27,661 nt of DNA, from positions 1-27,661 of IMG/VR virus record IMGVR_UViG_3300032323_001556, one strand, 5' to 3'. Both the position numbers and the translations under genes were made by a program. This document shows positions 5,180 to 25,869 of this stretch, piece by piece; within the stretch, counting starts at the first letter, position 1; every line of letters starts with the position of its first letter. The notes under the pieces are model-generated. The model saw nothing but the letters and a program-made list of their open reading frames with translations. It was not told where the DNA came from and did not search any database. The stretch is from a virus.

Positions 5180-6277
5180 TTAACATGCTAATACATGTTG
5201 ATTAATAAATAATGAGTTCTTTCCATATTCAGATTTTAACCATTGTTGAACATAATTTTTATGCTCTTGGTCAATTTGAGTATTTCTAGGACCATACATC
5301 TGATCTATTACAGGATAATATTCATGCATCTTTACTCCTACTGTAGCTCTAACACCTTCTCTATCATATTTAAAAACATAATAGTTTTTGTCTCTTACAC
5401 TTCTTTCATAGTTAGTATAAACACAGTGTTTCATTGTAGTACCTTCTTCAAACAACTCAATGTTACTTTTGATAAGACTAATACCTTCAGGTGTTTCAAT
5501 TTCAGGATAGTTGTAATCAACAGGTTGGATAGATTTTATAGCCATACCCATTAATTCTCTAGTCCATTCAGCATGAACTTCCTTCATTCTAGTCTCTGAC
5601 CACTTAAGATTTACTTTTCTATCAAGCATTTCAGCTTGAGTAAATAAATCTTCAAGTTCACCATTGTACCTAGTAGTTCTTTGTTTTGCTACATGTTCTA
5701 GACCTTCATTAGGATTAGTAGCATATAATATATACTTTTTAAATCCTTTTGGTGAATTAAATTCATTTTCCATGAATGTTTTGTAAAACAATTCAGGTGA
5801 TAAGTCTAGATTCTTGTAAGGACTAGTCTTAAGATATGCTTTAACATAATCTCTTGGATTAGTAATCTTACCCTTAATCATATTCTGAAGCATTGTCTTG
5901 TTTAACAATGTCTTTAATGAATATGACAAAGCATCAAACCAATCCAATTTAAAGAACTGAATAATATCAGGTAATATTGTACCTTCTAATATCTGAATAG
6001 AATTACCAAACCAAATCTTAATGGTTTTCTTTTCTTTGTCAAAGCTAACACCTGCTTTATTACTATTTAAGTAGAAAAGCCTGTTGTTTTCAAATCTCGG
6101 GACTCTATTACTGTTACACCAATAGACATGTGTATCAGTTTCTTTTCTATTTGTAGTAGAAAAACCATAGATTTCCCCTTTATAAAACAAATATCTCTGC
6201 ACTTCTACAGGCATTGCTTTATATTCTTCCATTTTTTCTAGAGTTAATTGCCCTGTAATAACTGTTTTAATTTCCAT
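5180..6277 (-). CDS. PcfJ-like domain protein
   Basis: The ATG at 6275-6277 is chosen (MEIKTVITG); the frame extends to 6325, but only from a TTG and through a probable leader. The product has 365 residues. Residues about 275-345 match the PcfJ-like pattern I know from plasmid and phage proteins: an acidic-Gly stretch and MKHCV (282-286), a Tyr/Lys segment, then a strand with DQMYGPRN (325-332) and a helix to the end. The N-terminal 270 residues are not recognised. PcfJ was first named in a conjugative plasmid and its biochemical role is not settled, so no activity is assigned. It ends 11 bases before the 5168 start. Confidence 0.72.
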   Translation of the reverse strand: MEIKTVITGQLTLEKMEEYKAMPVEVQRYLFYKGEIYGFSTTNRKETDTHVYWCNSNRVPRFENNRLFYLNSNKAGVSFDKEKKTIKIWFGNSIQILEGTILPDIIQFFKLDWFDALSYSLKTLLNKTMLQNMIKGKITNPRDYVKAYLKTSPYKNLDLSPELFYKTFMENEFNSPKGFKKYILYATNPNEGLEHVAKQRTTRYNGELEDLFTQAEMLDRKVNLKWSETRMKEVHAEWTRELMGMAIKSIQPVDYNYPEIETPEGISLIKSNIELFEEGTTMKHCVYTNYERSVRDKNYYVFKYDREGVRATVGVKMHEYYPVIDQMYGPRNTQIDQEHKNYVQQWLKSEYGKNSLFINQHVLAC

Positions 6278-6340
6278 TTTTAAGTATATTTTTAAGTGTA
6301 CAATAATAATTAGAGAGCCTTTCAACTCTCCAATATATAG

Positions 6341-8311: not shown

Positions 8312-8648
8312 GGTCTGTGTTTGAATTTGATTTATGTTTTTTGTTGGGAAACAGCTTGGTATATCACTAATGTGTGAATGGCCTGTGACTGGTAATCCGG
8401 AATCAATAAGTCTCTTTCTATATGTAGTAGTAATACTAATACTAATCCTATAGAGAGTAATAAGACTAAGAGTGTTTAGCTATAGTTAATATATTATTAT
8501 AGCATCTTGAGGAATCTCATTAAGTTATTTACTACCATTGTTATTTGGATAGTTTTACACTCCACTTGTTACTCTCTCACACTTAATTAGTTACAAATTA
8601 TTCTTTAAACCTTTAAGCCTTGTAACTATAACAAATATTACTTTAATC
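8312..8648 (-). ncRNA. non-coding transcript or long leader with inverted repeats
   Basis: The promoter-like element at 8649-8683 points into this region, which holds no convincing gene; the longest ATG frame noted is 13 codons. Inverted repeats are AGTTACAA (8589-8596) with TTGTAACT (8620-8627); GCTATA / TATAGC around 8478-8503; and a long nested stem with outer arms AGTCT near 8408 and AGACT near 8453 and inner arms TCTATA / TATAGA. It is either a separate RNA or a long 5' leader of the 8311 gene. A degenerate version of the AGT half of the element (TTGGGAAACAGC) lies near 8344. Confidence 0.45.
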
Positions 8649-8683
8649 TTAGTGTAAAAACAATGCAAAGAGGCACGCAGTGC
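8649..8683 (-). promoter_or_regulatory. hairpin element copy 1 (GCAC-GCA-GTGC)
   Basis: Stem GCAC/GTGC at 8673-8683 with loop GCA; the AGT motif at 8651-8653 lies 24 bases away, as in the other copies. It follows directly on the terminator of the 8775-9050 gene. Unlike the other copies no gene starts within 50 bases; the next start is 338 bases away. Confidence 0.75.
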
Positions 8684-8696
8684 AAGAGAATTACTA

Positions 8697-8730
8697 TAAA
8701 AAAAAATAACCTTATACTATATAAGATTAT
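8697..8730 (-). terminator. rho-independent terminator
   Basis: On the minus strand the stem ATAA-t-CTTATA pairs with TATAAG-g-TTAT around a TAG triloop (8706-8730), followed by nine T (8698-8706). It ends the 8775-9050 transcript and lies 14 bases before hairpin element copy 1. Confidence 0.8.
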
Positions 8731-8774
8731 CTTTTTAACTCTTTGAATCTTAAGGTATTGCTACCTACCCCTAA

Positions 8775-9050
8775 TTACTTAGGAGTAGAAGCAAATGCCA
8801 ATGTACTCTGTACATTAGATTCCCCAGTTGGGTGAATCATCCAGCTAGGTTCTCCATTATCTGGAGAGAAGTAACTGATTGACAAGTCATTGGACAATGC
8901 CGTTACCTTGTCAGATACTCTAAATGTAGTACCATTGCTGGCTACACCAAAGATTTTCCCGGTGTGTGGGTTCTCAACTAGGTCAATCTTTGTGATGCCA
9001 TTAGTCTGAGCAAATACCCCAATGCTCATAGTTTTAGTAAACAAACTCAT
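8775..9050 (-). CDS. hypothetical protein, paralogue of 9831-10094
   Basis: A 91-residue beta-rich protein. It aligns without gaps with the 87-residue product of 9831-10094: shared blocks include SIGVFAQTNGI, NGTTFRVS and the run from GEPSWMIHPTG to NVQSTL. Most of the differences are conservative, so the two arose by duplication. No known domain is recognised. The invariant W-M-I-H-P-T-G block may be the working surface. It has its own hairpin element (9090-9124), a 40-base leader and its own terminator. Confidence 0.75.
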   Translation of the reverse strand: MSLFTKTMSIGVFAQTNGITKIDLVENPHTGKIFGVASNGTTFRVSDKVTALSNDLSISYFSPDNGEPSWMIHPTGESNVQSTLAFASTPK

Positions 9051-9089
9051 AGTAATTATACTTAAGGATTAAACAAATATTTATTACAA

Positions 9090-9124
9090 GTAGTTGAAAA
9101 ACAGTGTAAAGCGGTGCGCAGCAC
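9090..9124 (-). promoter_or_regulatory. hairpin element copy 2 (GTGC-GCA-GCAC)
   Basis: Stem GTGC/GCAC at 9114-9124, loop GCA, AGT at 9092-9094. Compared with copy 1 the inner two stem pairs are swapped in a compensating way. It lies 40 bases before the 9050 start. A second hairpin, CACAG/CTGTG, overlaps its right side. Confidence 0.78.
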
Positions 9125-9270
9125 AGAGGATTTACTGTGTAATATACCACTAATAACCCTGAGCCTTTAGCCATTTAACTCTCGTTGATATACCCCTTTA
9201 ATCAAAAAACACATATTTTGTAACCCCTTAATAATCAGTGCTTGAGTCTACTTGTTACACACGGTGGAGA
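9125..9270. other. non-coding spacer
   Basis: 146 bases between the 9271-9299 terminator and hairpin element copy 2. No gene or strong secondary structure is seen. Related short strings (TATACC and TAACCCC variants) recur in it, which may be decayed repeat material. Confidence 0.4.
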
Positions 9271-9299
9271 CAAAAAAAATAAAGGATTACTCCTCTATT
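9271..9299 (-). terminator. rho-independent terminator
   Basis: On the minus strand AATAGAGGA pairs with TCCTTTATT (9 bp, one G-U) around a GTAA loop that contains the stop codon of the 9287-9454 gene, followed by eight T. Confidence 0.8.
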
Positions 9300-9454
9300 G
9301 TCTTTAGGATAGCCAGCATTTCTTTTAGTGCTGATCTATACCCTACATGCCAATGCCAATCTTCTGCAGTTGGTGCATGGTCTATCCAATAATCTGTATC
9401 TTCAATGTTCTCTTCTAAAGATATCATTAATCCTTTTAATTGTTTCTCACTCAT
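9287..9454 (-). CDS. small hypothetical protein (55 residues)
   Basis: The minus-strand ATG at 9452-9454 opens a 55-residue frame: an acidic helix (SEKQLKGLMISLEENIED), then a Trp/His segment (YWIDHAPTAEDWHWHVGYR) and a C-terminal helix (SALKEMLAILKTIEE). The case for a real gene is contextual: hairpin element copy 3 lies 19 bases upstream and a strong terminator spans its stop, the same cassette layout as its neighbours. The family is unknown. Confidence 0.72.
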   Translation of the reverse strand: MSEKQLKGLMISLEENIEDTDYWIDHAPTAEDWHWHVGYRSALKEMLAILKTIEE

Positions 9455-9472
9455 ACCTATTAATATTTGTTA

Positions 9473-9507
9473 TTAGTAATGAAATATTTTAATGTGGTCC
9501 AGAGGAC
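9473..9507 (-). promoter_or_regulatory. hairpin element copy 3 (GTCC-AGA-GGAC)
   Basis: Stem GTCC/GGAC at 9497-9507 with loop AGA; AGT at 9475-9477, 24 bases before the stem. It sits 19 bases before the 9454 start and abuts the terminator of the 9521-9727 gene. Confidence 0.78.
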
Positions 9508-9534
9508 AAAATGTAGAGACTTAATCTCCACATT
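9507..9534 (-). terminator. terminator overlapping the stop of 9521-9727
   Basis: On the minus strand a 10-bp stem (9525-9534 with 9510-9519, one G-U) and a 5-base loop lead into TTTTG. The stop codon lies in the loop, and hairpin element copy 3 begins within the tail. Confidence 0.65.
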
Positions 9535-9727
9535 CTATCTTAAACTGTTCAATCTCCTCCAATATCTTTCTAGTAGATACACTACTATAATATAATGGAA
9601 TAGATGTCTTGCCAAATTGATTCAGGAAACTCTCAAGTCTACCTACTCTCTTAATGCCGTAGATTCTAGCTACAGTACATAATCTAACAGTGAATCTTTG
9701 ATTGTTTATATTCTTGTGTTTATACAT
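9521..9727 (-). CDS. small basic hypothetical protein
   Basis: A 68-residue basic protein (MYKHKNINNQRFTVRLCTV). The segment VARIYGIKRVGRLESFLNQF could be a helix-turn-helix-like pair, but it is too short to assign. It is carried in its own unit: hairpin element copy 4, an 18-base leader, the gene, then a terminator overlapping the stop. Confidence 0.66.
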   Translation of the reverse strand: MYKHKNINNQRFTVRLCTVARIYGIKRVGRLESFLNQFGKTSIPLYYSSVSTRKILEEIEQFKIECGD

Positions 9728-9744
9728 GGTTCTTTATTTTAATT

Positions 9745-9779
9745 CTAGTTATAAAACATACTATAGCGGCCCGAAGGGC
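9745..9779 (-). promoter_or_regulatory. hairpin element copy 4 (GCCC-GAA-GGGC)
   Basis: Stem GCCC/GGGC at 9769-9779, loop GAA; AGT at 9747-9749. It lies 18 bases before the 9727 start. The T-to-C change in the left arm and A-to-G in the right arm, relative to GTCC/GGAC copies, keep the pairing. Confidence 0.8.
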
Positions 9780-9792
9780 AAAGGGAATAAGG

Positions 9793-9820
9793 AAAAAAGA
9801 ATATCCACCTAAGTGGATAT
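9793..9820 (-). terminator. rho-independent terminator
   Basis: A perfect 8-bp stem, ATATCCAC (9801-9808) with GTGGATAT (9813-9820), 4-base loop, then TTCTTTTTT on the minus strand. It lies 11 bases past the stop of the 9831-10094 gene. Confidence 0.85.
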
Positions 9821-9830
9821 GCTTTTGGAG

Positions 9831-10094
9831 TTATGCAAACTTCAAAGTACTTTGAACGTTGCTTTCTCCTGTTGGATGTATCATCCATGATGGTTCTCCA
9901 TCTTCAGGTGTGAAATAACTCACAGACAAATCTGCAGACAACCTTGTGATGTCTTTAGACACTCGGAATGTGGTACCATTATCGGCAACACCAAACATTT
10001 TGTCTGTATGTGGGTTAATAACTAAATCAATTTTATTGATTCCGTTTGTTTGTGCAAATACACCAATGCTAACTGTTTTACTAAATAAGCTCAT
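9831..10094 (-). CDS. hypothetical protein, paralogue of 8775-9050
   Basis: An 87-residue beta-rich protein, the sister of the 8775-9050 product. The blocks SIGVFAQTNGI, NPHT, NGTTFRVS and the C-terminal W-M-I-H-P-T-G are preserved; changes such as D/E, S/T and V/I dominate, so both copies look under selection. Function unknown. It is preceded by hairpin element copy 5 (25 bases upstream) and followed by a strong terminator. Confidence 0.75.
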   Translation of the reverse strand: MSLFSKTVSIGVFAQTNGINKIDLVINPHTDKMFGVADNGTTFRVSKDITRLSADLSVSYFTPEDGEPSWMIHPTGESNVQSTLKFA

Positions 10095-10118
10095 AATTAT
10101 AATATTAATTGTTTAATA

Positions 10119-10153
10119 GTAGTGGTAAAATAAAACAAAGCGGTCCAAAGGAC
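10119..10153 (-). promoter_or_regulatory. hairpin element copy 5 (GTCC-AAA-GGAC)
   Basis: Stem GTCC/GGAC at 10143-10153, loop AAA; AGT at 10121-10123, 24-base spacing. It lies 25 bases before the 10094 start. The T tract of the preceding terminator runs straight into the stem. Confidence 0.8.
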
Positions 10154-10178
10154 AAAAAAAGAACTACCAAGGTAGCTC
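10154..10178 (-). terminator. terminator overlapping the stop of 10164-10325
   Basis: On the minus strand GAGCTACC pairs with GGTAGTTC (one G-U) around a tight loop, followed by seven T that touch hairpin element copy 5. The stop codon lies within the stem. Confidence 0.78.
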
Positions 10179-10325
10179 TTCTGGTCTTTGACTAGAATCA
10201 AATATTTCATATTCTCTAAGTCTAAACTCTAAACGGAGTATATACTCTATTAGAACAGCTTTAGACTGTAACTCTAATTCTTCTTGATATGTAATATGAT
10301 CCATGTTATCTATTGATTCTTGCAT
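10164..10325 (-). CDS. small hypothetical protein (53 residues)
   Basis: The ATG at 10323-10325 (MQESIDNMDHITYQEE) is chosen because it follows hairpin element copy 6 by 17 bases and the leader AAAATTATTATT, the same as its neighbour. The frame stays open upstream to 10487, but that would translate the element and overlap the next gene. The product is acidic and mainly one helix (SKAVLIEYILRLEFRLREYE). Family unknown. Confidence 0.68.
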   Translation of the reverse strand: MQESIDNMDHITYQEELELQSKAVLIEYILRLEFRLREYEIFDSSQRPEELPW

Positions 10326-10341
10326 AATAATAATTTTGGAT

Positions 10342-10375
10342 ATAGTAATGAAATGATTAATGAGGTCCGAAGGAC
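10342..10375 (-). promoter_or_regulatory. hairpin element copy 6 (GTCC-GAA-GGAC)
   Basis: Stem GTCC/GGAC at 10365-10375, loop GAA; AGT at 10344-10346, with the spacing one base shorter (23) than in most copies. It is 17 bases before the 10325 start and abuts a terminator. Confidence 0.8.
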
Positions 10376-10400
10376 AAAAAAAAGGGATTACTCCCTTTTT
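10376..10400 (-). terminator. rho-independent terminator
   Basis: On the minus strand AAAAAGGG pairs with CCCTTTTT around a 6-base loop and runs on into eight T, directly against hairpin element copy 6. It starts two bases past the stop of the 10402-10701 gene. Confidence 0.85.
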
Positions 10401-10401
10401 A

Positions 10402-10701
10402 TCAACCACTAATCTCACATTTATCTGTGAATGGATTGTTAGTGAAGCTGACATGTAGATGTACATCAAGATCTTTAAGGATCTCATATGCTTCTGTCAT
10501 CTGCTCCTTTGCCTTAGCAATAAGGGCTCTGTTCATGTTATCATTGATGGCTGTCTCCAATTCTTCAAGACTCATCAAACTTGCAGGTTTCTCTGTAGTG
10601 ATATAGACCTTGCTGTTTGGATTCTCTGAATTTAATGGAGACATGCCACAATGTTCTTCATACATGTAAAGGATTCTGTTTACTCTTGTTGTGATAATCA
10701 T
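10402..10701 (-). CDS. hypothetical protein
   Basis: The ATG at 10699-10701 (MIITTRVNRILYMYEEHCG) is chosen; the frame opens further upstream only from a TTG inside the hairpin element. The 99-residue product has a Pro/Asn-rich loop (SPLNSENPNSK), a helix rich in Glu, Ala and Lys (LEELETAINDNMNRALIAK) and a short beta end (VHLHVSFTNNPFTD). No family is recognised. It is carried in its own cassette between hairpin element copy 7 and a terminator. Confidence 0.7.
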   Translation of the reverse strand: MIITTRVNRILYMYEEHCGMSPLNSENPNSKVYITTEKPASLMSLEELETAINDNMNRALIAKAKEQMTEAYEILKDLDVHLHVSFTNNPFTDKCEISG

Positions 10702-10717
10702 AATAATAATTTTAGGT

Positions 10718-10751
10718 ACAGTTGTGAAACAATTAAGGAGGCCCAAAGGGC
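10718..10751 (-). promoter_or_regulatory. hairpin element copy 7 (GCCC-AAA-GGGC)
   Basis: Stem GCCC/GGGC at 10741-10751, loop AAA; AGT at 10720-10722, 23-base spacing. It is 17 bases before the 10701 start. A seven-T tail from the preceding terminator abuts it. Confidence 0.8.
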
Positions 10752-10782
10752 AAAAAAAGAAAAGGGCAAAGCCCTATTCTTT
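10752..10782 (-). terminator. rho-independent terminator
   Basis: On the minus strand AAAGAA-t-AGGGC pairs with GCCCT-t-TTCTTT around a TTT loop, followed by a T run that abuts hairpin element copy 7. It overlaps the stop of the 10781-10966 gene. Confidence 0.8.
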
Positions 10783-10966
10783 ATTCCAATAATCCCTGAT
10801 ATTTCTGCAGTTTCATTTCTATATACTCTCTATCCATATCAATGTTTAGTTGATCTTCTTCTGAGTATGTAGCATATTCTTCCCAAGATAGATTCATTAT
10901 CCAATGATAATATTCCATTCTTCTTTTCTCTGCTTGTTCTTCTGTTTCTTGTAGTATGTTTATCAT
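10781..10966 (-). CDS. small acidic hypothetical protein
   Basis: A 61-residue acidic, Tyr/Glu-rich and probably all-helical protein (QAEKRRMEYYHWIMNLSWEE). It is the first gene of the leftward arm, 23 bases past hairpin element copy 8, and has its own terminator. First position in the early arm suggests early expression after infection (inference). Family unknown. Confidence 0.68.
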   Translation of the reverse strand: MINILQETEEQAEKRRMEYYHWIMNLSWEEYATYSEEDQLNIDMDREYIEMKLQKYQGLLE

Positions 10967-10988
10967 GATTTATATTTTTATGTTAAGA

Positions 10989-11023
10989 ATAGTGGTGATA
11001 CAATGTATAGCGGTCCGAAGGAC
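10989..11023 (-). promoter_or_regulatory. hairpin element copy 8 (GTCC-GAA-GGAC), first of the left arm
   Basis: Stem GTCC/GGAC at 11013-11023, loop GAA; AGT at 10991-10993, 24-base spacing. It is 23 bases before the 10966 start. No minus-strand gene lies upstream and no terminator abuts it, which fits a true promoter position rather than an intercistronic processing signal. Confidence 0.8.
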
Positions 11024-11235
11024 AATAATTTCAAAACATCCAATGTTTTTGGATTCACTGCACAGATTTCAAGGGGGTATACCACTCCTCCGCCAAAGGC
11101 GGGGGGTCTTTTGATAAGGAGTCACTATCTTCTCTTACATACAACATTTCTAAATTCCGTCATAAATTCCCAAGGGGGGAACCCAAGGAATAAAAAAGAC
11201 CCGGGGGATATTATTTAGTGTCAAGGGTATAGATA
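11024..11235. other. divergent intergenic region with G-runs and hairpins
   Basis: This is where the leftward and rightward arms part. It is far richer in G on the plus strand than its surroundings: five-G or longer runs near 11073, 11101, 11174 and 11202. Hairpins are ATCCAA / TTGGAT (11038-11054), a strong CTCCTCCGCC-AAA-GGCGG type stem at 11086-11106 followed by TCTTTT, and ATTCC / GGAAT (11166-11191) with an inner GGG/CCC. A plus-strand open frame crosses it, but its sequence does not look coding. It could be a replication or transcription control region (inference). Confidence 0.55.
11086..11112 (+). terminator. strong GC-rich hairpin with T tail (terminator-like)
   Basis: CCGCC (11090-11094), triloop AAA, GGCGG (11098-11102), extended by four more pairs including G-T, then TCTTTT. 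No plus-strand gene lies upstream, so it may serve as an insulator between the arms, or act as a DNA or RNA hairpin rather than a terminator. The AAA triloop recalls the hairpin elements of the left arm. Confidence 0.45.
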
Positions 11236-11271: not shown

Positions 11272-12132
11272 ATGGTAGAAAAATTAAGTAAGAATGTACA
11301 CAAGATATCTTTGTCTGGTACATACAATGAAATTGCTGTGCTCTCTGATTTGCATTGGGATAATCCTAAGTGTGATAGAGTGCTGCTAAAAAAACACCTG
11401 GATTATTGTTTAGATAAAAAGATTCCTGTAGTTATCACTGGGGATCTTTTTTGTTTAATGCAAGGCCGGGGAGATAACAGAAGAAACAAATCGGACATCT
11501 TACCTGAGCACAACAACTATAAATACTTAGACTCTATTGTAGAAACTGCAGTAGATTGGTTTACACCATATGCACATATTCTAACTGTTGTAGGTTATGG
11601 AAATCATGAGACTGGAATTATTAAATGGCAAGAGACTGATATCTTACAAAGATTTGTTGACTTGTTAAATCATACTACCGGGTCTAATGTTTATACTGGA
11701 GGATATGGTGGCTGGATTGTTTATGATGTTACCATCAGAACAAATGTAAAAACAAGTTTCAAGCACAAATACTTTCATGGATCCGGTGGTGGAGGTATTG
11801 TTACCAAAGGAGCTATCAACCTTACCAGAGCTTTAGAAACTTATGAAGGATTTGACTTGTTTTCTATGGGGCATATCCATGAGAACAGTTGCAGAAATGA
11901 TTCTAGAGAAATACTGTATATGAATACAACAGTAACTGAAATCAGACTAAAGCAAATACATCACTGTATTACCGGTACTTATAAAGAAGAATATGATGAT
12001 GGATCTAAAGGATGGCATGTTGAAAGAGGTGCTCCTCCAAAACCACTAGGTGGTAGAATAGTTATGATCTCTGCAAAACGTGAAAAAGATGTAGTAATAA
12101 AATCTATAGATAGTAAAGGTTTTCCTTTATAA
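11272..12132 (+). CDS. metallophosphoesterase (calcineurin-like)
   Basis: A 286-residue protein with the metal-binding motifs of the calcineurin-like phosphoesterase fold in order: D26-x-H28 (SDLHWD), G57-D58 (ITGDLF), G110-N111-H112-E113, H168 (YFHGSGGGG) and G199-H200-x-H202 (MGHIHEN). These place two divalent metals for hydrolysis of phosphodiester or phosphomonoester bonds. All key residues are present, so it should be active; the substrate (nucleic acid, cyclic nucleotide or phosphoprotein) cannot be read from sequence. It is cytosolic, with no signal peptide. It is the first gene of the rightward arm, 14 bases after a promoter-like block, and is followed by a structured RNA candidate. 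Confidence 0.88.
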   Translation: MVEKLSKNVHKISLSGTYNEIAVLSDLHWDNPKCDRVLLKKHLDYCLDKKIPVVITGDLFCLMQGRGDNRRNKSDILPEHNNYKYLDSIVETAVDWFTPYAHILTVVGYGNHETGIIKWQETDILQRFVDLLNHTTGSNVYTGGYGGWIVYDVTIRTNVKTSFKHKYFHGSGGGGIVTKGAINLTRALETYEGFDLFSMGHIHENSCRNDSREILYMNTTVTEIRLKQIHHCITGTYKEEYDDGSKGWHVERGAPPKPLGGRIVMISAKREKDVVIKSIDSKGFPL

Positions 12133-12347: not shown

Positions 12348-12362
12348 GTTTATCTTTGTTGT

Positions 12363-23667: not shown

Positions 23668-25869
23668 ATGAGTGAGATTTATCAAGATATACCCTGTTGG
23701 GATAATGGTTCATGGACAACAGTATCCTTTAATTCAAGGGAGGAGTTTGCTGGTTCTATTGAAAGCATATTTTCTGAACCAGGTAAGTATGGTTTTGATG
23801 AAACCAGTTTACTTTTTAATGAACAAGCCTTAAAGTTTAAAGATCAAAATGTATATTGTGTTGCTCCTTTCAAGTCTAAGGATTTTGTGACTTATTGGGA
23901 TGATCAAAAACATAAATGTAGAAAAGGAGTCTTTTATATTAATGGTGATAAGAAATGGTATTTATCCAGAGATTATTACATGTGGTTAAACTTCCTACCA
24001 ATCTTTGATAAAGAACAACAAAAGTTTGACTTTGCTAAAATTAGAGATGCCCAATATCATATGGCATTATATGAGACTCTTGCTGAACTCACATATAAAC
24101 ATGTGGCAATTCTGAAAAAAAGACAGATTGCATCATCTTACTTTCATGCCGGTAAATTAATAAATCAGTTATGGTTTGAGGCCGGAGTTACTCTTAAGAT
24201 GGGAGCCAGTCTTAAAGATTACATAAATGAAAAAGGAACCTGGAAATTCTTAAATGAATATGCTGCCTTCTTAAATGAGCACACTGCTTGGTATAGACCT
24301 ATGTCTCCAGACAAAGTAATGATGTGGCAACAAAAGATTGAAGTAAGAAAAGCAGATAGAAAAACTGAAGTAGGTTTAAAAGGTACATTACAAGGAATGT
24401 CATTTGACAAAGATCCTACAAATGGTGTAGGGGGTCCTGTTAAATTTTTCTTTCATGAAGAGGCCGGAATTGCTCCTAAGATGGATCAGACTTTTGGTTA
24501 TATCAAACCTGCTTTAAAATCAGGTATGATTACAACAGGTATGTTTATAGCTGCAGGATCTGTTGGGGATTTAGCACAATGTGGTCCCTTAAAGGATATG
24601 ATAAATAACCCAGAGGGTAGTGATATTTATGCTGTAGAAACTAATCTGATTGATAGTAAAGGTACTATAGGTAAGACAGGTTTATTTATTCCAGAGCAAT
24701 GGTCTATGCCACCATGTATTGATGATTATGGTAATAGTCTTGTAGAAGAGGCATTAGAGTATTTAGAGAAATACTTTGCTGAATGTAAGGCAAACATGTC
24801 TCCAGAAGGTTATCAGCTTGAGTTATCTCAGCATCCAAGAAACATAGAAGAAGCATTTGCACACAGAACTGTATCTAAGTTTCCGCCTCATTTACTTGCA
24901 GCACAGCAAAGAAGAATAGAAGATAAAGAATATGCTTATGAATTTCTAGATATTAGTACTGATGAGAATGGTAAACCTACAGTTAAGCAATCTAATAAAC
25001 AACCTATAAAAGAATTTCCTATTACAAAGAAAACTGAAGATAAGACTGGTGTATTAGTTGTATGGGAAAGACCTATTAAAGATCCAACATTTGGACAGTA
25101 TTATGCTTCTATTGATCCCGTGTCAGAGGGTAAAACAACAACATCAGAATCATTGTGTTCAATATATATTATGAAAGCTCCTGTGGAAGTAACTAAAGTT
25201 ACAGGAACAGAAACAGAAACTTATATAGAACCTGATAAGATTGTAGCTACATGGTGTGGCCGATTTGATGATATTAATAAAACACATCAAAGATTAGAAC
25301 TAATTATAGAATGGTATAATGCATGGACAGTAATTGAGAACAACATCTCATTATTTATCCAGTACATGATCTCCAGGAAAAAACAAAAGTATTTGGTACC
25401 AAAAAGCCAAATATTATTCTTAAAAGATCTTGGTGCCAATGCTAACGTGTTCCAGGAGTACGGATGGAAAAATACAGGAACCTTATTTAAACAACATTTG
25501 CTTAGTTATGCAATTGAATATACCAAAGAAGAAATTGATGTTGAAACAAAAGCAGATGGAACTATTGTAAGAACTAAGTATGGTATTGAGAGAATACCTG
25601 ATCCAATGTTACTTACAGAAATGAGAGAATATGGGGATGGTGTCAATGTGGATAGATTGGTTTCTTTTGCAGCATTAGTTGCATTTATGAGAATTCAACA
25701 AGCAAATAGGGGTTATAGTAAAAGAGTTATTATGGATGATGCAGCTAAAAACTTGCAAAAGTCAGATAATTTGTTTAAATTAAATAGAAGCCCTTTCCGC
25801 CATATGGGGAGAGGTGCCGTATCAATGGGCCAGTCTTCAAAGAGATCACCATTTAAAAATTTAAAGTAA
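23668..25869 (+). CDS. terL: terminase large subunit
   Basis: A 733-residue packaging motor protein. The ATPase part shows an unusual Walker A-like stretch, L149-K-K-R-Q-I-A-S-S (a basic loop in place of the usual G-K-T), and a clear Walker B with catalytic acids, K-F-F-F-H-E264-E265-A-G. The C-terminal nuclease domain begins with a strand ending in a metal-binding Asp, A-S-I-D483-P-V-S-E-G, with a further acidic cluster (RFDDINK) downstream. Nonclassical Walker A loops are common in phage terminases. It pumps DNA into the prohead with the portal, whose gene starts 6 bases later. Confidence 0.9.
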   Translation: MSEIYQDIPCWDNGSWTTVSFNSREEFAGSIESIFSEPGKYGFDETSLLFNEQALKFKDQNVYCVAPFKSKDFVTYWDDQKHKCRKGVFYINGDKKWYLSRDYYMWLNFLPIFDKEQQKFDFAKIRDAQYHMALYETLAELTYKHVAILKKRQIASSYFHAGKLINQLWFEAGVTLKMGASLKDYINEKGTWKFLNEYAAFLNEHTAWYRPMSPDKVMMWQQKIEVRKADRKTEVGLKGTLQGMSFDKDPTNGVGGPVKFFFHEEAGIAPKMDQTFGYIKPALKSGMITTGMFIAAGSVGDLAQCGPLKDMINNPEGSDIYAVETNLIDSKGTIGKTGLFIPEQWSMPPCIDDYGNSLVEEALEYLEKYFAECKANMSPEGYQLELSQHPRNIEEAFAHRTVSKFPPHLLAAQQRRIEDKEYAYEFLDISTDENGKPTVKQSNKQPIKEFPITKKTEDKTGVLVVWERPIKDPTFGQYYASIDPVSEGKTTTSESLCSIYIMKAPVEVTKVTGTETETYIEPDKIVATWCGRFDDINKTHQRLELIIEWYNAWTVIENNISLFIQYMISRKKQKYLVPKSQILFLKDLGANANVFQEYGWKNTGTLFKQHLLSYAIEYTKEEIDVETKADGTIVRTKYGIERIPDPMLLTEMREYGDGVNVDRLVSFAALVAFMRIQQANRGYSKRVIMDDAAKNLQKSDNLFKLNRSPFRHMGRGAVSMGQSSKRSPFKNLK

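Follow-up and report, generated by a model that had tools for sequence, protein, structure and literature searches.

Covarying mini-hairpins upstream of early genes in a crAss-like phage as probable components of phage RNA polymerase promoters

The window analyzed in this study is the whole 27,661-nucleotide (nt) stretch of the IMG/VR virus record IMGVR_UViG_3300032323_001556 (positions 1 to 27,661), from a phage that we take to be of freshwater origin on general knowledge of such contig sets, not sample records. Eight short hairpin elements lie in this window, seven of them in front of small genes. The terminase large subunit (23668-25869) matches proteins in 136 phage records, and the best matches listed are crAss-like phages at 24-25% identity over approximately 85% of the query. 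Metagenomic phage contigs provide hundreds of further matches, with 78-94% for the top 80. These matches bear out the original prediction, made from the sequence alone, that the phage is crAss-like. Two divergent gene arms run from approximately 11.1 kb; the minus-strand arm extends from 11.0 kb down to position 1, and the plus-strand arm extends from 11272 up through the terminase. The phi14:2 genome has its terminase in one arm and its replication (early) genes in the other, and the minus arm of the window is therefore assigned as the early arm. Thus, as predicted, the elements stand in front of early genes, with all eight copies at the very start of the early arm:

Element 1: 10990-11024, minus strand; hairpin 11013-11023; GTCC-TTC-GGAC followed by CGC, spacer and ACTA; gene 10781-10966.
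Element 2: 10719-10752, minus strand; hairpin 10741-10751; GCCC-TTT-GGGC followed by CTC, spacer and ACTG; gene 10402-10701.
Element 3: 10343-10376, minus strand; hairpin 10365-10375; GTCC-TTC-GGAC followed by CTC, spacer and ACTA; gene 10164-10325.
Element 4: 10120-10154, minus strand; hairpin 10143-10153; GTCC-TTT-GGAC followed by CGC, spacer and ACTA; gene 9831-10094.
Element 5: 9746-9780, minus strand; hairpin 9769-9779; GCCC-TTC-GGGC followed by CGC, spacer and ACTA; gene 9521-9727.
Element 6: 9474-9508, minus strand; hairpin 9497-9507; GTCC-TCT-GGAC followed by CAC, spacer and ACTA; gene 9287-9454.
Element 7: 9091-9125, minus strand; hairpin 9114-9124; GTGC-TGC-GCAC followed by CGC, spacer and ACTA; gene 8775-9050.
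Element 8: 8650-8684, minus strand; hairpin 8673-8683; GCAC-TGC-GTGC followed by CTC, spacer and ACTA; no adjoining open reading frame (ORF).

All eight elements were found in the window with the stems, loops and spacing claimed for them. On the plus strand, AGT precedes the stem by 21 or 22 bases in every copy, while the linker before the stem, predicted to be 3-4 bases long, is always exactly 3 (GCG, GAG or GTG). The stems are GTCC/GGAC (four), GCCC/GGGC (two), GTGC/GCAC (one) and GCAC/GTGC (one), and the plus-strand loops are GAA (three), AAA (two), GCA (two) and AGA (one). Read on the gene strand, the layout is T, GNNC-TNY-GNNC, C(G/T/A)C, a T-rich spacer and ACT(A/G). Because the genes lie on the minus strand, the strand bearing the purine-rich loop is the template strand, in agreement with the prediction. 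Similarly, seven of the eight elements stand close before the start codon of a minus-strand ORF, as had been claimed, with an ACT-to-ATG distance of 18-41 nt and the hairpin starting 50-74 nt before the ATG. The window contains 13 hairpins of the same size and GC content, 8 of which have AGT at 21-22 bases; in 300 dinucleotide shuffles of the window, the number of such AGT-hairpins averaged 0.15 and never exceeded 2. When the arms were shuffled within the window, the probability of all eight stems pairing was 0.0012.

To define the conservation of the element, relatives were fetched with the early-arm paralogue described below. Five contigs were obtained, representing four distinct genomes (the elements of L163 and L166 are identical), and all of them carry the hairpin element, including the 122.6-kb contig G005. 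A weight matrix of the flanks only, blind to the stem and loop, was scanned over the window, the whole of G005 and the other contigs. The top 24 matches in the five genomes all contain a perfect 4-bp stem and a 3-base loop, whereas matches ranked lower form 0-3 pairs. As this matrix had been trained on nearly all copies, it was rerun with training on the window only, and the first 14 matches in the relatives again all pair. The 24 stems are GTCC/GGAC (9), GCAC/GTGC (6), GTGC/GCAC (4), GCCC/GGGC (3) and GTCT/AGAC (2); they are 100% paired, with double changes at three of the four pairs, no comparable slid register and no G.U pair in any of them. When the arms were shuffled between copies, the mean number of paired stems fell to 6 of 24, with a maximum of 14. 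The covariation events are fewer than the cells counted, because within-genome copies and between-genome orthologues are not independent. Collectively, the 24 paired stems, the three covarying pairs and the agreement of the window-trained matrix uphold the earlier claim that the structure itself is selected, and carriers of the element in the five genomes all keep the pairing.

The original prediction also proposed a covariance-model search of relatives. Over 1.06 Mb of relatives, the model returned the 24 copies and nothing else, and over a further 0.79 Mb it returned copies only in contigs already known; every copy found in the clade of the window has the hairpin. The three model copies in G005 all fall within the opening kilobases of its early arm. 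Upstream of their leading early gene, the relatives carry a variant, TTCC-TGC/TAC-GGAA or TCCC-TGC-GGGA, that the model missed. Among relatives fetched with the exonuclease gene, a scan for AGT-hairpins gave no excess outside the window, and the nearest of them, L082 and L086, share only the exonuclease gene with the window. The strict element pattern had no match in four large relatives.

This covariation bears on whether the element is an operator, that is, a dyad-symmetric site for a phage or host regulator of early genes. Inverted repeats upstream of several genes in one regulon are a typical operator arrangement, and the repeats here are present before each gene. However, the half-sites GTCC, GCCC, GTGC and GCAC differ within one genome while pairing is kept, and the center differs between the strands, the gene strand invariably reading T-N-Y, an asymmetry that a symmetric dimer site does not need. 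A symmetric operator was rejected on the grounds of the variable stem and oriented loop, and we regard an operator of any kind as distinctly unlikely.

The hairpin has fixed bases on either side, and most elements sit behind the terminator or the stop codon of the upstream gene, several of them directly after a terminator T-run. The latter placement would suit a terminator or insulator, in which the hairpin stops upstream transcription and the ACTA core alone is the promoter, as would the finding that the hairpin is optional in other lineages. However, Element 1, in the divergent region, is not preceded by any co-directed gene, which was also a ground for rejection; moreover, each upstream gene is already served by a terminator, the hairpin is not directly followed by a T-run, and bases on both of its flanks are fixed. 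A terminator or insulator is very unlikely. At Elements 4 and 6, the upstream stop codon is only 10 and 13 nt away, respectively, which leaves no space for a further promoter in non-coding sequence.

Element 8 has orthologous copies in four other genomes. It is followed by approximately 340 ORF-free nt (8312-8649, minus strand), and a similar stretch is present in four relatives, with the conserved blocks AATATAGCTAA and TTCCGGATT..CAGTCA. The stretch has no Rfam match and is possibly an early non-coding RNA or a long leader.

To place the element among related phages, a conserved early protein was used to retrieve 80 early arms from relatives. These arms share a repeated layout of terminator, short lineage-specific motif, 20-50 nt and ATG, and the motifs fall into the classes ACARCTY...ACT, YAACCCT, AACTTTTATT, CTTTATAAG and TCTTTAATAA. 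In a second lineage (G001/L212, L202, L206, L207, L209, L216, L234, L243 and L250), the core TACARCTT..ACT has an upstream GCC-TNC-GGC hairpin, replaced by GCT-TTC-AGC in one case. Additionally, ACC-TAC-GGT and ACC-TTC-GGT hairpins occur in L260 and L267. Nearly all of these 3-bp-stem hairpins present GNA on the template strand, and a related scan found the hairpin 15 times on the gene strand and 0 times on the other strand. In G002, most early promoters consist of the core only, with hairpins at the distal ones. Since the core is constant and the hairpin optional in the sister lineages, the hairpin resembles a module placed upstream of a promoter core and not the whole promoter. Among the partial carriers L234, L260, L172/L198 and L238, the hairpin tends toward promoters farther from the divergence point.

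The near-complete G005 encodes the large virion RNA polymerase (RNAP) with DFDxD that characterizes crAss-like phages, in a 4115-amino-acid (aa) ORF containing SGSDFDVDK and matching phi14:2 gp66 around this motif (BLASTP, 3e-09); the window ends before that gene. A phmmer search of the whole ORF against the PDB returned nothing useful, and PF00940, used to look for a T7-like single-subunit RNAP, matched neither the window nor G005 and G001, nor the control genomes. The RNAPs were compared over 500 residues around the motif with G005 as the reference. Identity is 57-62% for genomes with class-A or hairpin promoters, 52-54% for YAACCCT genomes and 39-42% for AACTTTTATT, CTTTATAAG or TCTTTAATAA genomes. 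In contrast, the promoter classes are not sorted by terminase identity to the window (G001 85%, G002 84%, G022 78% and G010 76%) or by early-protein identity (G001 69%, G002 70% and G022 57%). In these sequence comparisons, promoter core type appears to correlate with similarity of the DFDxD RNAP and not with that of the terminase or early protein, over a modest number of lineages and no reconciled tree, with terminases measured against the window and RNAPs against G005. Simple linkage is unlikely, because a long distance separates the RNAP gene of G005 (25.4-37.8 kb) from its elements (108.4-109.3 kb). Phage-RNAP promoters are the best reading of the elements, as promoter class tracks RNAP identity.

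According to a review, the virion RNAP of phi14:2 transcribes the early genes, while crAss-like late genes are thought to use the host RNAP (PMC10136315). The latter point would lend some plausibility to the elements being host-RNAP promoters in which the hairpin is incidental. However, no host-type TAnnTTTG box of Bacteroidota is present on the element strand (minus) between 7956 and 11748, which led us to reject this explanation; furthermore, promoter class tracks the phage RNAP, and the hairpin is conserved and covarying, so that host-RNAP promoters are extremely improbable here. On the late-arm strand, TAnnTTTG boxes occur in intergenic gaps at 12351, 12567 and 20097 (plus strand), in keeping with host-RNAP transcription of the late genes.

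The loops follow a rule. On the template strand, the 24 loops are GCA (12), GAA (8), AAA (3) and AGA (1); 22 of 24 have a C-G closing pair, and the loop is GNA in 20 and ANA in 4. For the window alone, the closing pair is C-G in all eight copies, and the loop is GNA in five and ANA in three. In phage N4, which packages its own RNAP (PMC4496689, PMC12633501), hairpin extrusion requires a template-strand C-G closing pair and a loop with a 5' G and a 3' A, and the non-conserved stem bases are free provided that they pair (PMC4496689); an N4 P1 oligonucleotide includes GTTGC-GAA-GCAAC (PMC12633501). The elements thus resemble the P1-P3 promoters of the N4 virion RNAP (Schitoviridae) in being short inverted repeats that enclose a 3-base loop and precede early genes, in having, in most copies, a C-G pair that closes a template-strand loop beginning with G and ending with A, and in keeping the pairing while the stem bases vary.

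The original prediction went further and assigned the elements the geometry of N4 promoters, which was not supported. The elements have a 4-bp stem, and the hairpin stands 18-20 nt from the conserved ACT(A) core, whereas the N4 hairpin spans -17 to -5 with the start approximately 5 nt away; a distance of 18-20 nt would misfit the N4 geometry if ACT marks the start. The loop center is C in 12 of the 24 copies, while N4 recognizes a purine at -11. Moreover, there are eight copies here as opposed to three in N4, and the candidate polymerase is of the DFDxD two-barrel type as opposed to the T7-like enzyme of N4. With loop center, core distance and polymerase family all different, the elements are not N4 promoters. 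N4 virion RNAP promoters need gyrase supercoiling and host single-stranded DNA-binding protein.

The same features can be read at the RNA level. In that case, transcription would start farther upstream, and the hairpin, lying at the 5' end of the early mRNA, would protect it, act as a processing site or bind a regulator. The strict orientation, the position nearly always upstream of a gene, the stability of the gene-strand RNA hairpin (-0.8 to -4.6 kcal/mol), the pyrimidine tract before the hairpin, with T immediately preceding it in 24 of 24 copies, and the CGC-TTTA after the hairpin, loosely similar to boxA, would all suit an RNA element. However, in four cases the hairpin begins only 10-29 nt after the stop codon of the upstream gene, with terminators between and no conserved upstream promoter. 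The absence of G.U wobble from the 24 stems also argues against RNA, as do the sister promoters that retain the core without the hairpin and the triloop register, which precludes a UNCG tetraloop on GTGC/GCAC or GTCC/GGAC stems. An RNA-level element is therefore unlikely. A UNCG tetraloop, hinted at by CUNCGG, was itself rejected, given that these two stems pair only in the triloop register. Similarly, boxA/boxB antitermination, suggested by the likeness of CGCTTTA to boxA, was rejected on the grounds that the elements come after terminators and serve one gene each.

Taken together, the sequence comparisons indicate that the elements probably belong to early promoters at which the phage RNAP acts. 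Whether the hairpin acts as extruded template-strand DNA is an evenly balanced question, and the case for it is drawn from the pairing, the difference between the strands and the rule that the loops follow. We modestly favor the combined explanation, namely, early phage-RNAP promoters with an upstream template-strand DNA mini-hairpin. In this mechanism, the phage's own giant RNAP, thought to enter the cell with the DNA, would use the eight promoters, each comprising a core that ends in ACTA (ACTG in one) and a candidate upstream module formed by the 4-bp inverted repeat with its 3-base loop. Negative supercoiling would extrude the inverted repeat as a small DNA hairpin, and the RNAP or a partner protein would read the hairpin shape and a few fixed bases instead of the stem sequence. 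Transcription would then start at or near the ACTA core, with the phage polymerase performing the initiation.

Several observations weigh against this explanation. The 4-bp DNA stems are weak (-0.6 to -2.4 kcal/mol), and the RNA form of the gene strand is at least as stable. The DNA folding energies do not separate the two strands, as the GNA loop receives no bonus from the parameter set in this context; the argument for strand preference thus rests on the published N4 work. In L234 and L260, some early promoters consist of the core without a hairpin. The distance between hairpin and core also varies, from 3 to 13 nt (to TACARCTT) in the second lineage and by 3 nt in the lineage of the window. 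Inspected by eye, the early genes of phi14:2 show no such hairpins. Furthermore, the correlation between RNAP and promoter could partly reflect shared ancestry, and its RNAP reference is G005, since the window has no RNAP gene.

Among other known systems, phi14:2 is similar in having a related DFDxD polymerase (gp66) and the same divergent early and late arms. In the N4-like Pseudomonas phages LUZ7, LIT1 and PEV2, hairpins with 4-5-nt stems and 3-nt loops are predicted at early genes (PMC3715699), but the phage family and polymerase are unrelated and those phages have three per genome. The vRNAP and nvRNAP of P23-45 are two-barrel single-chain RNAPs with dedicated motifs upstream of pre-early and early genes; unlike the elements here, these motifs are linear, AT-rich and GC-rich, and the paper does not use the word hairpin (PMC10770324). 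No published promoter for crAss-like virion RNAPs was found in the literature searched, which excluded the primary phi14:2 paper.

For several freshwater lineages, the analysis yields candidate promoters that co-vary with the polymerase, which makes recognition testable. Crassvirales rank among the most abundant phages known, and the giant polymerase of their virions is similar to the eukaryotic RNA-interference polymerases. Should the hairpin act as DNA, promoters read by structure would have originated separately in two polymerase families that are not related, and both polymerases would be injected with the genome and act on DNA just supercoiled by the host. DNA-hairpin promoters may accordingly have evolved twice, a tentative proposal to which we give slightly less than even credence: a two-barrel DFDxD virion RNAP, with no relation to the T7-like enzyme of N4, would read a supercoil-extruded C(GNA)G mini-hairpin that lies on the template strand, whose stem drifts and which serves as an optional upstream booster of early promoters in sister phages.

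The genes behind Elements 1-7 are as follows:

10781-10966, minus strand: first early-arm gene, 61 aa, no known family.
10402-10701, minus strand: early-arm gene, 99 aa, no known family.
10164-10325, minus strand: early-arm gene, 53 aa, no known family.
9831-10094, minus strand: early-arm gene, 87 aa; marker of the hairpin clade and paralogue of 8775-9050.
9521-9727, minus strand: early-arm gene, 68 aa, no known family.
9287-9454, minus strand: early-arm gene, 55 aa, no known family.
8775-9050, minus strand: early-arm gene, 91 aa, paralogue of 9831-10094.

The two paralogues are 80% identical, and two copies are present in every genome of the hairpin clade. They belong to no known family, with only weak database matches, and a fold model of the early paralogue (predicted local distance difference test score of 71) gave no confident match in the PDB.

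In the early arm of phi14:2 (L188, 4031-4500), ARAGORN predicts a transfer-messenger RNA with the tag GSSVQKLAMVA. In the early arms of other relatives, the blocks CTCTCATCCAAGCAGGTA...GGTTGCAACCTTGTGAGAG and AACTGAGTGCAGAGGG recur between early genes (L172 8350-8470, L183 9970-10090, L173 9750-9850 and others). Judged from their sequence, these blocks look like structured RNAs; they have no Rfam match in L172 or L183, and no tRNA is present there. The exonuclease-like gene of the window (11272-12132) is approximately 85% identical in L082 and L086 despite otherwise different neighboring genes, a pattern that suggests gene exchange between phage groups. Farther along the early arm, 5180-6325 (minus strand) encodes a protein of 381 aa with a PcfJ-like domain.

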